From Paractinoplanes lichenicola (lineage in GTDB: Bacteria; Actinomycetota; Actinomycetes; Mycobacteriales; Micromonosporaceae), in assembly GCF_016785085.1 (NCBI RefSeq), contig NZ_JAENHO010000005.1:186001-250000 (forward strand): 64,000 nt of DNA. Direction: 5' to 3'. Positions 42,935-46,469 of this stretch are shown here, in pieces. A program made the translations under genes and the position numbers. Within the stretch, counting starts at the first letter, position 1; every line of letters starts with the position of its first letter. The notes under the pieces are model-generated. The model made no database searches. It was not told the origin of the DNA and worked only from the letters and a program-made list of their open reading frames with translations.

Positions 42935-43744
42935 ATGACAGAGCTGATTCTCGAAGGACTCAAGGCCAAGCAGCAGAAGACCTGGGCCAGTGGCGATTAC
43001 GGCGCGGTGGCCACCCTGATCCACCCGATGGCCGAGGAGACGGTGCAGGCGGCCGATCTCACGCCGGGGGCGGAGGTGCTGGACGTGGCGGCCGGCACCG
43101 GCAACGCCGCCCTGGCCGCGGCCCGGTGCGGCTGCCGGGTGACCGCTTCCGACTACGTGCCGGGGCTGCTGGCCCGGGCCCGGGAGCGCGCCGACGCCGA
43201 GCGCCTGCCGCTGACGACCGAGATCGCCGACGCCGAGCATCTGCCGTACGCGGCGGGCCGTTTCGACGCCGTGCTCTCGGTGGTCGGTGCGATGTTCGCC
43301 CCCGACCAGGAGCGCACCGCGGCCGAGCTGACCCGGGTGTGCCGCCGCGGGGGCACGATCGCGATGGCCAACTGGACGCCTGACGGCTTCATCGGCGAGA
43401 TGTTCCGCACCGTGGGCCGCCGGGTCCCGCCGCCGCCCGGCATCCGCGGGCCGGTCGAGTGGGGCAGCGAGGCCCGCGTCCGCGAGCTGTTCGGTGACCG
43501 GGTCACCGACCTGCGCACGGTCCGCCGCGAGTTCGTGTTCCGGTTCACCTCACCCGAGCACTTCGCCGACTATTTCCGCGAGTATTACGGCCCGACGCTC
43601 AAGGCGTTCGAGGCGCTGGGCCCCGACGGCGGCAAGCCGCTCTACGACGACCTGGTCGCCCTGGCCGGCCGTTACAACACGGCGACCGACGGCACGGCCC
43701 GCATCCCGTCGGCCTACCTGCGGATCGTGGCGACCCGGGCCTAA
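42935..43744 (+). CDS. Class I SAM-dependent methyltransferase
   Basis: The 269-residue protein has SAM motif I EVLDVAAGTGNAALAAAR, motif II SDYVPGLLARARERA, ADAEHLPYAAGRFDAVLSV (the post-I Asp) and LTRVCRRGGTIAMANWTPDG. It is a UbiE/Coq5-like small-molecule methyltransferase. The C-terminal third, with FRFTSPEHFADYFREYYGP, probably forms the acceptor lid. The substrate is unknown. Its stop overlaps the SRPBCC gene's stop by four bases in convergent orientation. Confidence 0.85.
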   Translation: MTELILEGLKAKQQKTWASGDYGAVATLIHPMAEETVQAADLTPGAEVLDVAAGTGNAALAAARCGCRVTASDYVPGLLARARERADAERLPLTTEIADAEHLPYAAGRFDAVLSVVGAMFAPDQERTAAELTRVCRRGGTIAMANWTPDGFIGEMFRTVGRRVPPPPGIRGPVEWGSEARVRELFGDRVTDLRTVRREFVFRFTSPEHFADYFREYYGPTLKAFEALGPDGGKPLYDDLVALAGRYNTATDGTARIPSAYLRIVATRA

Positions 43745-44187
43745 GGCGCGGCGGGGGTCAGGCTGTTCAGCGCCTGGGTCAGCGCGGCCGCGCCCAGGTT
43801 GCCGACCTTCTCGAACTCCATCTTGATCAGTCGCGAGGCCAGCTTGGCCAGCCCATGCATCTCGAGCTCGACCCGATAGGTGACCTCGCAGCCCGACGGG
43901 GCCGCCCGCACGACCACCGTGTCGACGCAGGTGGCCCCCTCGTTGCGCCCGTGGAACAGCAGCCGCCCGGGCTCGGAGGCGACCAGCGTGTAGGTCAGCT
44001 CGGTGGTGATGCCGAGCAGCCGGCACACCTGCCGCCAGCTGACACCCGGCACGATCGGCCCGGCGCCGTGCCGGATCGACTGGCGGACCACCGGATCCCA
44101 CACCGCGGTGTTGCCGAAGTCGGTCAGGTAGCCGAGCGCCAGCGGCGGGGCGGCGTTCACGGCCAGGCTGCGCTCCACGACGATCAT
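43741..44187 (-). CDS. SRPBCC-fold (polyketide cyclase/START-like) protein
   Basis: The 148-residue protein fits the SRPBCC helix-grip fold: an opening strand VVERSLAVNAAPPLALGYLTD, central beta strands ITTELTYTLVASEPGRLLFHG and SGCEVTYRVELEMHGLAKLA, and a long C-terminal helix EFEKVGNLGAAALTQAL. Such proteins bind hydrophobic ligands; no catalytic residues can be assigned. It converges on the methyltransferase gene, which is not proof of a shared function. Confidence 0.72.
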   Translation of the reverse strand: MIVVERSLAVNAAPPLALGYLTDFGNTAVWDPVVRQSIRHGAGPIVPGVSWRQVCRLLGITTELTYTLVASEPGRLLFHGRNEGATCVDTVVVRAAPSGCEVTYRVELEMHGLAKLASRLIKMEFEKVGNLGAAALTQALNSLTPAAP

Positions 44188-44254
44188 GAGTCCCCCCAGG
44201 CGTCGACATGCCGCTCCAAGACTAATGGCCGTTTCTGATCATGGGGCGGGTTTC

Positions 44255-44689
44255 CTAACGGGTGAAGGAACGCACGAATTTTCGCTGCCAGGGCGTCTCG
44301 ACGGCCCGCGGATGGTAGTGCTCCCGCACATAGGCCACCGCCTCGTCTGCCGGGACCCCGTCGATGACGGCCACGCAGGCCAGCGCGGTTCCCGTGCGTC
44401 CCCGTCCACCCCCGCACGCCACTTCCACCCGCTCCCCGGCCGCCCGCTCCCACACTTCCCGCAAGACCTTTCCCGCGTACGCCGGGTCGGCGGGAAGCCG
44501 GAAGTCGGGCCACCGGATCCACCGGCTAGCCCAGCCGAACTCGGGCGGCGCCGAGCCCAGCAGGTAGGCCCCGAAGACCGGCGGGTGCCCCGACGGCATC
44601 GGCTCCCGCAGTCCCCGTCCCCGCACGAGCCGCCCCGACGGCAGTCGCATCACTCCGGTCTCGCCGGCCACCCAACTCACGGGACACAT
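44255..44689 (-). CDS. Cys-based protein-tyrosine-phosphatase-like protein
   Basis: The 144-residue protein has the CX5R phosphatase loop as VEVACGGGRGRTGTALACV, with Cys and Arg correctly spaced and the following Thr/Gly. A possible general-acid Asp lies in WIRWPDFRLP. The loop has Gly in place of the usual His before Cys-x-x-G, so it is a variant. The gene diverges from the argS leader with only 41 bases between. A cytosolic phosphatase is likely, but its substrate is not known. Confidence 0.72.
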   Translation of the reverse strand: MCPVSWVAGETGVMRLPSGRLVRGRGLREPMPSGHPPVFGAYLLGSAPPEFGWASRWIRWPDFRLPADPAYAGKVLREVWERAAGERVEVACGGGRGRTGTALACVAVIDGVPADEAVAYVREHYHPRAVETPWQRKFVRSFTR

Positions 44690-44730
44690 CTTGCTACGGC
44701 AACCGGTCCCGGATGAGCTACGGTGTGCCC

Positions 44731-44778
44731 ATGCAGACCTTCAGCGAGCGACGCCGGCGTTCCGACGACCGCCGCTGA
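44731..44778 (+). CDS. Putative Arg-rich leader peptide of argS
   Basis: A 15-codon ORF encodes MQTFSERRRRSDDRR, with six Arg (codons CGA, CGC, CGG, CGT, CGC, CGC), followed by hairpins and then argS. There is no Shine-Dalgarno sequence. A TACGGT -10 box at 44719-44724 puts the predicted transcript start at or next to the ATG, so it would be a leaderless ORF. By analogy with trp-type leaders, slow translation of the Arg codons when charged tRNA-Arg is scarce could switch the RNA fold and raise argS expression. Not demonstrated. Confidence 0.55.
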   Translation: MQTFSERRRRSDDRR

Positions 44779-44791
44779 GTCTTTGCTGTCC

Positions 44792-44842
44792 CCGGCGGGT
44801 CGATCCCGCCGGTGCTCCCCTCGCGTGACCCGGTCGACCCGC
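44792..44842 (+). promoter_or_regulatory. Candidate attenuator hairpins before argS
   Basis: CCGGCGGG (44792-44799) pairs with CCCGCCGG (44805-44812) around TCGAT. Alternatively GCGGGTCGA (44795-44803, counted with its leading G) pairs with TCGACCCGC (44834-44842). The two folds exclude each other because they share the GCGGG segment. The leader codons also contain CGCCGG, complementary to CCGGCG. There is no U-tract after the first hairpin, so its terminator role is uncertain. Confidence 0.45.
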
Positions 44843-44867
44843 TTTCGCGTACGTCGATGGGTGCGTC

Positions 44868-46469
44868 ATGAATCTCGAAGCTCTTCTCGCCGCTCGGCTG
44901 GCGGTCGCGTTCGAGGCGGTCGCCGGTGAGCCGGTCGATCCCCTCGTCCGGGTCTCCCAGCACGCCGATTTCCAGTCCGGGGCCGCCCTCGCCCTGGCCC
45001 GCCGGCTGGGCCGGGCCCCGCGCGAGGTCGCGGCCGAGGTGCTGGCCCGCTCCGACCTGGCCGGGCTGGCCACGGCCGAGATCTCCGGCCCCGGCTTCCT
45101 CAACCTGACCGTCGACGACGCGGTGCTCGCGGCGCCGCACCCGCTCGACCCGCCGCCGGGCGCCAAGGAACGGATCGTCCTCGACTACTCGGGTCCCAAC
45201 GTGGCCAAGGAGCTGCACGTCGGCCACCTGCGGTCGACGATCATCGGGGACGCGCTGGCCCGGCTGTTCACGTGGGCCGGGCACGACGTCGTACGGGTCA
45301 ACCACCTCGGCGACTGGGGCACGCAGTTCGGCATGCTGATCGAGCAGATGTCCGACCTCGACGGCAGCTACTCGCTGAGCGACCTGACCGCCTTCTATCG
45401 GCGGGCGCGGGTCAGGTTCGACAGCGACCCCGACTTCCGGACCCGGGCCCGGCTGCGGGTGGTGTCGCTGCAGAACGGCGACGCGACAACCCGGGCGATG
45501 TGGCACAAACTGGTCGAGCAGTCGGAGCGGTCGTTCGTGGCCGACTACGAGCGGCTCGGCATCACGCTGACGATGGCCGACTTCAGCGGCGAGAGCTCCT
45601 ATCAGGATCAGCTGGCCTCGGTGGTCGACGAGCTGACGGCCAAGGGGCTGCTGGTCGAGAGCGAGGGCGCGCTCTGCGCGTTCCCCGCCGGGTTCACCGG
45701 CCGCGACGGGGAGCCGCTCCCGCTCATCGTCCGCAAGAGCGACGGCGGTTTCGGGTACGCGGCCACGGACCTCGCCGCCCTGCGGCACCGCACCCGGGAC
45801 CTGGCCGCGACCCGCCTGCTCTACGTGGTCGGCACCCCGCAGAGCAACCACTTCGCGATGGTCTTCGCGGTCGGGCGGGACGCCGGCTGGCTGCCCGGCG
45901 GGGTCACCGCCGAGCACGTCAACTTCGGCTCGGTGCTGGGGCCGGACGGCAAGATGCTCAAGACCCGGTCCGGCGACACGATCAAACTGGCCGACCTGCT
46001 GGACGAGGCGGACGAGCGGGCCACGTCGCCGGCCGTCGGGATCGGGGCCGTCAAGTACGCCGACCTGGCCAACGACCGGCGCAGCGACTACGTCTTCGAC
46101 TGGGACCGGATGCTGGCCGCGACCGGCAACACCGGGCCCTACCTGCAGTACGCCCTGGCCCGGATCCGCTCGCTGCTGGCCAAGGCCGCGCACGAGCCGG
46201 GACCGGTCGTGCTGGCCGACCCGGCCGAGCGGCGGCTGGCCCTGACCCTGCTCGCCTTCGAGCCGGCCGCGGCCGCCGCGATCGAGCACCGCGAGCCGCA
46301 CCGGCTGGCCGTCCACCTGCACGAGCTGGCGGTCGCCTTCACCACGTTCTACGAGAAGTGCCGCCCGATCCTCGGCTCGCCGAGCCGCCTGGCTCTCACC
46401 GCCCGCACGGGCGAGACCCTGCGGCTCGGCCTCGACCTGCTCGGCCTGCCCGTCCCCGACGAGATGTGA
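44868..46469 (+). CDS. argS: Arginyl-tRNA synthetase
   Basis: The 533-residue class I synthetase charges tRNA-Arg. The N-terminal additional domain is followed by the HIGH region as LDYSGPNVAKELHVGHLRST. The KMSK-equivalent loop reads VLGPDGKMLKTRSGDTI, the usual non-canonical form in ArgRS. The C-terminal anticodon-binding domain shows YLQYALARIRSLLAKA and ends HELAVAFTTFYEKCRPI with LLGLPVPDEM. It stands alone on the plus strand behind the leader ORF; a membrane protein gene converges on its end with one base between stops. Confidence 0.95.
   Translation: MNLEALLAARLAVAFEAVAGEPVDPLVRVSQHADFQSGAALALARRLGRAPREVAAEVLARSDLAGLATAEISGPGFLNLTVDDAVLAAPHPLDPPPGAKERIVLDYSGPNVAKELHVGHLRSTIIGDALARLFTWAGHDVVRVNHLGDWGTQFGMLIEQMSDLDGSYSLSDLTAFYRRARVRFDSDPDFRTRARLRVVSLQNGDATTRAMWHKLVEQSERSFVADYERLGITLTMADFSGESSYQDQLASVVDELTAKGLLVESEGALCAFPAGFTGRDGEPLPLIVRKSDGGFGYAATDLAALRHRTRDLAATRLLYVVGTPQSNHFAMVFAVGRDAGWLPGGVTAEHVNFGSVLGPDGKMLKTRSGDTIKLADLLDEADERATSPAVGIGAVKYADLANDRRSDYVFDWDRMLAATGNTGPYLQYALARIRSLLAKAAHEPGPVVLADPAERRLALTLLAFEPAAAAAIEHREPHRLAVHLHELAVAFTTFYEKCRPILGSPSRLALTARTGETLRLGLDLLGLPVPDEM

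Follow-up and report, generated by a model that had tools for sequence, protein, structure and literature searches.

The stretch analysed here, called the window throughout, is 64 kb of DNA from Paractinoplanes lichenicola, a genome of the Paractinoplanes/Actinoplanes type. It contains argS, the gene of an arginyl-tRNA synthetase (ArgRS), which is preceded by a short open reading frame (ORF) rich in Arg codons and by a series of overlapping RNA stems, the last of which covers the argS ribosome-binding site (RBS) (Table 1). A sequence-only reading had described the ORF as 15 codons with six Arg codons, four of them consecutive, and re-reading the DNA confirmed this. The ORF ends 89 nt before the start of argS. 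Its -10 box stands at the distance from the start codon, 6-7 nt, that marks a leaderless mRNA, and the transcript is predicted to start there, in agreement with the leaderless look noted earlier. On both strands of the window the leader ORF was the sole instance of a TANNNT-N6/7-(A/G)TG ORF of 10-40 codons, with or without three consecutive Arg codons (RRR), and an RRR-bearing ORF of this shape occurred in 4 of 3100 shuffled 200-nt upstream regions.

The stems are named by their segments. B (44792-44803) can pair with C to give the first hairpin, which begins 13 nt 3′ of the leader stop codon, or with D, and D can also pair with E, which carries the RBS. Because of the shared segments, the B:D stem excludes both of its neighbours, B:C and D:E, and the 5′ arm of the D:E hairpin is the alternative partner of B. 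The two mutually exclusive stems of the earlier reading, B:C and B:D, are thus both present; the D:E hairpin over the Shine-Dalgarno (SD) sequence, the complementarity within the ORF and the finding that this argS is a second copy go beyond it. No terminator-like site was found between 44500 and 45000 of the window and no T-run follows 44812, which bears out the remark that no U-tract follows the first hairpin, so action on translation is possible. A scan of 43500-46000 with the Rfam models gave just one chance-level match (43598-43691, E 4.9) and no T-box or other known family.

Table 1. Features of the argS leader, in window coordinates
Feature	Positions	Strand	Details
-10 element TACGGT	44719..44724	+	6 nt (GTGCCC) 5′ of leader ATG; leaderless transcript predicted
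Leader ORF, MQTFSERRRRSDDRR and stop	44731..44778	+	15 codons; ATG at 44731, stop 44776-44778
Run of four Arg codons, CGA CGC CGG CGT	44749..44760	+	
Second Arg pair, CGC CGC	44770..44775	+	immediately 5′ of the stop
Candidate hairpin within the ORF	44740..44779	+	44740-44750 with 44770-44779, A44747 bulged, Arg run in the loop; duplex -14.1 kcal/mol
First hairpin, B:C	44792..44812	+	CCGGCGGG/CCCGCCGG; arms B 44792-44799 and C 44805-44812; perfect, 8 pairs
Alternative stem, B:D	44795..44842	+	GCGGGTCGA (44795-44803) with TCGACCCGC (44834-44842); 9 pairs
Hairpin D:E over the argS RBS	44823..44866	+	-20.7 kcal/mol; ends 1 nt before argS ATG
SD-like GGG of argS	44859..44861	+	within the D:E stem; GGGG, GAGG or GGAG at the same place in relatives
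argS, probable auxiliary ArgRS	44868..46469	+	533 aa; TIGR00456 389 bits (cut-off 261.65)

The window-type argS was searched for in 300 genomes of the family (Micromonosporaceae), and 225 had it with an E of 1e-100 or lower. Among them were 66 genomes of the window's genus, its own included; G234, also of this genus, was without the window type. The leader, a short Arg-rich ORF whose start follows a TANNNT box by 6 or 7 nt, was present in 65 of these 66 in the region before the best match, the only one considered; 62 leaders were aligned and three more (L214-L216, from G130, G155 and G218) were read by eye. The exception was L154 in G222, where the ArgRS is 59% identical and has a different beginning. 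The second argS copy of G202 lies outside this count. The leader occurs in the named relatives Paractinoplanes ferrugineus, P. deccanensis, P. polyasparticus and Actinoplanes palleronii; no plasmid relatives were found at E 1e-5. The T, A and final T of the -10 hexamer were invariant in the 62 aligned leaders, which were themselves picked with a -10 rule. The earlier reading was to be given up if close relatives had kept neither the ORF nor the stems, and on this point it holds, as the ORF and the first stem are kept across the genus. A covariance model of the genus leaders scored 93 bits at argS in the window's own genome; the next matches there (27.6, 22.1 and 21.1 bits) were judged to be chance by inspecting their sequence alone.

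The genus ORFs were chosen by the -10 rule together with at least four Arg codons, so their spacing and Arg content are not independent of the selection. A test that made no use of Arg content found exactly one ATG or GTG located 6-7 nt behind a TANNNT and at most 60 nt before the conserved CGACG in each of the 65 leaders. This single start shared the frame of the Arg run in every one of the 65, where one third would be expected, and this is the strongest sign that the ORF is probably translated. The distance from start to run took nine values between 12 and 36 nt in the 62 aligned leaders (in L132 the second of three CGACG matches was taken for distance and codon counts), and ATG and GTG were exchanged. 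It is therefore very improbable that the leader acts as a structured RNA only, with an ORF that is never translated: the strong nucleotide conservation of run and hairpins would suit such an RNA, but the in-frame start and its varying distance to the run would not.

The first three codons of the Arg run are nearly fixed at the nucleotide level (CGA in 60/60, CGC in 58/60 and CGG in 57/60 aligned leaders with RRR). Upstream of B, the Arg run lies at 41-47 nt in 57 of the 62 leaders and the stop codon at 13-15 nt in 55, and with these constant spacings the place of a ribosome relative to B would be nearly fixed. The gap between stop and first hairpin is longer in L141 and L143 (26 nt) and in L126 (18 nt). 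All three still have GCTGA or GCTGG where the stop usually stands, which suggests that this element is conserved as RNA, beyond its role as a stop codon.

Outside the genus, 68 further family loci were inspected (67 from other genera, plus L154); they were picked among the best-scoring matches and are so a non-random sample. Under the strict -10 rule 46 of them have a leaderless ORF that is 10-45 codons long and contains three or more Arg codons, L159 and L166 being weak cases. The 22 misses include loci with a differently starting ArgRS and a subgroup with dispersed Arg codons. In that subgroup (L149, L161, L170, L171, L179, L185 and L206) the upstream region is built differently, with a frame resembling GRERTLARLRAALDRLS, whose start the -10 rule missed, and with a similar hairpin. 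Four loci (L163, L165, L167 and L154) encode a window-related type of ArgRS that has no Arg leader, with TAGATT close before the start, as if the gene were leaderless. The leader peptide is typically MTSSHAFPTASPDVLLGALRRRRSNDRLR in the second large clade, g4, which we take for Micromonospora, and MFAYSAARSLSRAALRPARRRFTAC in g39. When 200 genomes of the order were searched with the covariance model, using filters that lose weak matches, ten matched at E 1e-4: the window's own leader and nine g4 genomes. In the four g4 genomes that were compared (G127, G131, G138 and G144) the match lay directly before argS. Beyond the family no convincing leader was found among 75 loci, part of 80 scanned in upstream windows estimated from the match start; a TTG ORF in L074, the sole one of the 75 to pass the -10 rule, was judged to be chance. 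The other five of the 80 are Micromonosporaceae loci, and four of them have the leader.

Arg clusters are thus retained in leaders that differ widely in sequence and length, with the same enzyme downstream. This bears on the idea that the leader is translated but senses no arginine, occupying the 5′ end of the mRNA or feeding ribosomes to argS, with its Arg codons a by-product of GC-rich pairing sequence. The near-fixation of CGA CGC CGG as nucleotides and the ability of the ORF ends to pair would fit, but the persistence of the clusters in such different leaders would not, and in view of the shuffle controls a chance match of one amino acid to one synthetase is unlikely. We regard this explanation as improbable.

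The synthetase behind the leader is not the only one in its genome. A search of the own genome with the window argS gave one full match, which was argS itself; the other two matches were weaker pieces, belonging to a different ArgRS encoded on contig C29 (696577-698238; L003:718-2379), 39% identical over the best piece. The C29 gene starts at a GTG 6 nt behind TAGCAT, so it looks leaderless; the frame that follows it is apparently lysA, as read from its translation, and no Arg-rich leader is visible in the 380 nt upstream. An ArgRS of the C29 type was present in all 20 genomes checked, including G234. The window argS is therefore probably an auxiliary enzyme, the other copy presumably having the housekeeping role, and the leader would belong to the auxiliary one. 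Two window-type argS matches were seen in some genomes (G202, G062 and G297), and G202 has three ArgRS matches overall.

The B:C hairpin is the most conserved pairing of the genus leaders, with 99.4% of cells paired over 62 sequences and five of its eight pairs never varying. Its loop holds UCG, an Arg anticodon, in most leaders. E. coli ThrRS represses its own synthesis by binding its leader RNA, and the regulated gene here is likewise that of a synthetase. We nevertheless consider it highly unlikely that ArgRS or another protein binds hairpins that mimic tRNA-Arg and so represses ArgRS synthesis: the loop is without UCG in some leaders (e.g. L126 and L130), its conservation is explained by its complementarity to D, and such binding gives no reason for a conserved Arg-rich frame.

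Over the argS start, at least half of the SD region was paired in the minimum-energy fold of 61 of the 62 genus leaders, although the mean z of this stretch was only -0.97, with values below -1 in 29 of 62. In the second clade the region was likewise at least half paired in all 47 leaders (of 68) that passed the motif filter, with a mean of -37.5 kcal/mol and z of -2.67. As the two clades share little sequence, the RBS hairpin seems to be conserved as a structure. The B:D complementarity exceeded shuffles in both clades, with mean z of -2.2 to -2.7 (62 and 38 leaders) against -0.50 to 0.62 for control pairs, and the arms of the ORF hairpin gave mean z of -1.5 and -1.3. B:C, B:D and D:E share segments in the window, and the complementary segments are retained in both clades.

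When segments were swapped between leaders, the native combinations of the ORF hairpin and of D:E came out better, each equalled by 0 of 5000 permutations; L132 and L135 are without the 5′ ORF arm, and their placeholder energies distort the mean values of that arm. A second swap test compared window pairs in 35 representatives against a background of 171 window pairs (sd 1.64, overlapping windows disregarded). The lowest z, -5.7, belonged to the Arg run paired with the ORF tail next to it; B:D reached -3.0, the ORF hairpin -3.4 and two windows of D:E -2.75 and -4.7. The paired-cell share of the ORF hairpin and B:C lay above nearly all shuffles (1/500), at 92.5% against 29-52% in slid versions. 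RNAalifold gave no more than three pairs in alignment A3, and in alignment A2 nothing but B:C. The earlier suggestion that CGCCGG of the leader RNA can pair with the shared segment fared less well: CGCCGG at 44752-44757 is indeed complementary to CCGGCG at 44792-44797, but the native pair was no better than swapped ones (3164 of 5000 permutations as good).

Ribosome-mediated attenuation is suggested by the combination of Arg codons upstream of an ArgRS gene with a leaderless ORF that is probably translated and with mutually exclusive structures. At a probability of roughly 0.6, we read the 5′ end of the argS mRNA as a ribosome-mediated attenuator of a spare ArgRS that senses a shortage of Arg-tRNA and acts on translation. 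The ORF, its conserved frame, the conserved hairpins, the complementary segments and the second ArgRS are observed; the leaderless start, the sensing, the kinetic switching, the translational level and the sign of induction are what we infer from them. Transcription would start at or next to the leader ATG, judging by the -10 box, and a ribosome would translate the Arg-rich ORF, its progress through the Arg codons reporting how well tRNA-Arg is charged. The closed form, B:C together with D:E, would be the default, and B:D would free the SD sequence. A ribosome delayed on the Arg run would change the partner of B while RNA polymerase was still making D and E, and argS translation would rise under a shortage of charged tRNA-Arg. 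Induction is the expected sign because a synthetase is useful when charged tRNA is scarce. Conservation is strong, and the mechanism is plausible in outline.

Folding with a masked ribosome is consistent with the closed default. With 20 nt of argS included, B:C formed in 58, 60 and 60 of the 62 leaders (no ribosome, ribosome at the first Arg codon and ribosome at the stop codon, respectively) and the SD was paired in 60, 60 and 59; with 45 nt the counts were 53, 59 and 58 for B:C and 60, 60 and 60 for the SD. In a smaller set of 11 leaders B:C was missing from L001 without a ribosome and from L031 with a ribosome at the stop. Folding without a ribosome put the ORF hairpin into the minimum-energy structure of 54 of the 62 leaders when 20 nt of argS were included and of 46 when 45 nt were. 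With 45 nt the window's own leader lacks it: there, without a ribosome, the Arg run pairs with 44805-44812 and the ORF tail with 44792-44799, and the 44792-44812 hairpin does not form; with 20 nt that hairpin forms, and the SD hairpin is predicted with either length. A few leaders, the window's among them, take this form (Arg run:C with ORF tail:B) when ribosome-free and with 45 nt of argS. Their SD is likewise paired in it, and a ribosome on the run would break the form.

Several of these and other results weigh against the attenuator reading. The SD was paired at equilibrium in 59-60 of 62 leaders whatever the state of the ribosome, and B:D entered the minimum-energy fold of just 1-2 of 62 in any state, so that equilibrium folding predicts no ON state. 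As an ON form, B:D must then be reached during RNA synthesis, before E exists. A ribosome terminating at the stop codon would, from the ribosome footprint, end about 3 nt short of B, and B is thus not obviously masked. D:E exceeded shuffles only modestly (genus z -1.8, second-clade z -0.6, with E cut to its last 18 nt). The swap tests are inflated by relatedness, as the control pair a5:D was also low (6/5000) and a pair with no proposed role, a-6 with S-1, reached z -3.2. Column-wise covariation was negative for D:E, with no compensatory change (44 of 62 leaders). The ORF hairpin and B:C did no better than shuffles on the covariation measures; bulges, and one subgroup in a shifted register, may account for these outcomes. 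Covariation support is accordingly only moderate. Forcing the ORF tail onto B opened the SD in 23 of 62 leaders, and barely (mean 0.20 versus 0.19).

The sign of the response is a further point of this kind. In Salmonella orf34-speF, consecutive Arg codons of an upstream ORF sense arginine, and a ribosome pausing at them lets a hairpin form just after the stop, leaving the RBS open (available portions of PMC6386406). The layouts are alike in the consecutive Arg codons and in a hairpin just after the stop that bears on the opening of the downstream RBS. By this analogy the sign could be reversed, as a like geometry at argS would close the RBS on pausing. The Salmonella case, compared by layout, differs in that it concerns a gamma-proteobacterial ornithine decarboxylase gene whose ORF has its own SD sequence and in that RNase G and Rho are involved.

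The main rival of translational attenuation is transcriptional control by the same leader, in which a delayed ribosome would let the ORF tail pair with B (a 2:3 antiterminator) and so block B:C (3:4), which would itself be a terminator without a U-tract or a way into Rho-dependent termination in the C-rich stretch before argS. The ORF hairpin, ORF tail:B and B:C do resemble the classical three-hairpin scheme, with -15.7 kcal/mol for ORF tail:B and -17.3 kcal/mol for B:C in the window, and the title of Vecchione and Sello 2010 reports ribosome-mediated transcriptional attenuation for the Streptomyces coelicolor trpRS1 gene. Streptomyces lividans trpL2 is likewise described as being without a U-stretch (PMC8079986, in the part available). 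Set against this, besides the missing terminator-like site, are the weak showing of ORF tail:B over shuffles (mean z -1.1 and -0.9 in the two clades) and in the swap test (native no better, 579/5000), its near absence once a ribosome is placed on the Arg run (0-2 of 62 minimum-energy folds), and the conserved RBS hairpin, which transcriptional control leaves unexplained. We hold it to be rather unlikely, though less so than any other alternative.

Two further candidates were rejected. The first was ORF tail:B as the ON pairing, which barely frees the SD and is weak against shuffles. The second was hungry-codon frameshifting through the hairpins: the shifted frames ran on beyond the start of argS without a stop in 29 and 37 of 62 leaders (0.47 and 0.60), no more than the 0.63 expected from shuffles.

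Attenuators of synthetase genes are known in actinomycetes, among them that of S. coelicolor trpRS1, which is reportedly an auxiliary, non-housekeeping TrpRS. In a comparative study of Actinobacteria they were predicted before trpS and leuS of Streptomyces, and for arginine operons of Actinobacteria its available text states no conserved RNA structures (PMC1262725). RNA-seq of S. lividans gave the leader peptides alaL, thrL, trpL2 and leuL2 before alaS, thrS, trpS and leuS; leuL2, trpL2 and thrL are called leaderless there, trpL2 and thrL are described as lacking a U-rich stretch, and Wolf et al. 2017 on Actinoplanes SE50/110 is cited in the context of leader peptides (accessible part of PMC8079986). 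Mycobacterial leaderless poly-cysteine ORFs are attenuators (Canestrari et al. 2020, as given in the review PMC9031893). No arginine leader-peptide attenuator before an ArgRS gene was found in the literature searched, which mostly excluded subscription papers. The earlier remark that no case was known for an actinomycete argS therefore stands for argS itself, but attenuators of actinomycete trpS, leuS, alaS and thrS are in print (PMC1262725, PMC8079986).

The argS leader is like trpRS1, going by the title of that report, in that a second, non-housekeeping actinomycete synthetase would be under ribosome-mediated attenuation; it differs in the amino acid, arginine instead of tryptophan, and, where trpRS1 is transcriptional, in having no terminator that was found and a hairpin over the RBS. 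With S. lividans leuL2, trpL2, alaL and thrL it shares an actinomycete synthetase gene, a short ORF with cognate codons and hairpins. Arginine sets it apart from these and from the synthetase cases of PMC1262725, for which an RBS switch is not described in the portions available, and the expression platform is possibly new. The likeness to the mycobacterial poly-cysteine ORFs, whose amino acid is cysteine, lies in a leaderless short actinobacterial ORF in which codons of the amino acid that is sensed follow one another, and in downstream attenuation; the comparison is between the ORFs.

The wider proposal that this is a family-wide sensor of arginine tRNA is more tentative, and we put it at somewhat below even odds. 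In it a leaderless ORF and a kinetic three-way switch (B:C, B:D and D:E), with no terminator, would open the RBS of a backup ArgRS, making it the Micromonosporaceae arginine counterpart of trpRS1. If true, it would extend to arginine the list of amino acids for which an actinomycete leader ORF reads tRNA charging. The second ArgRS would then be a reserve, called on when the first enzyme fails or arginine is scarce, which would be a testable answer to why these bacteria have two. Two clades with different sequences and the same layout would also make a good model of RBS attenuation on leaderless mRNA in GC-rich bacteria.

Further upstream in the window, a small protein is encoded on the minus strand at 43741-44187. 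It matched the Rv0910 toxin family below threshold (28.8 bits, cut-off 100); we do not call it a toxin and presume that it has an SRPBCC fold.

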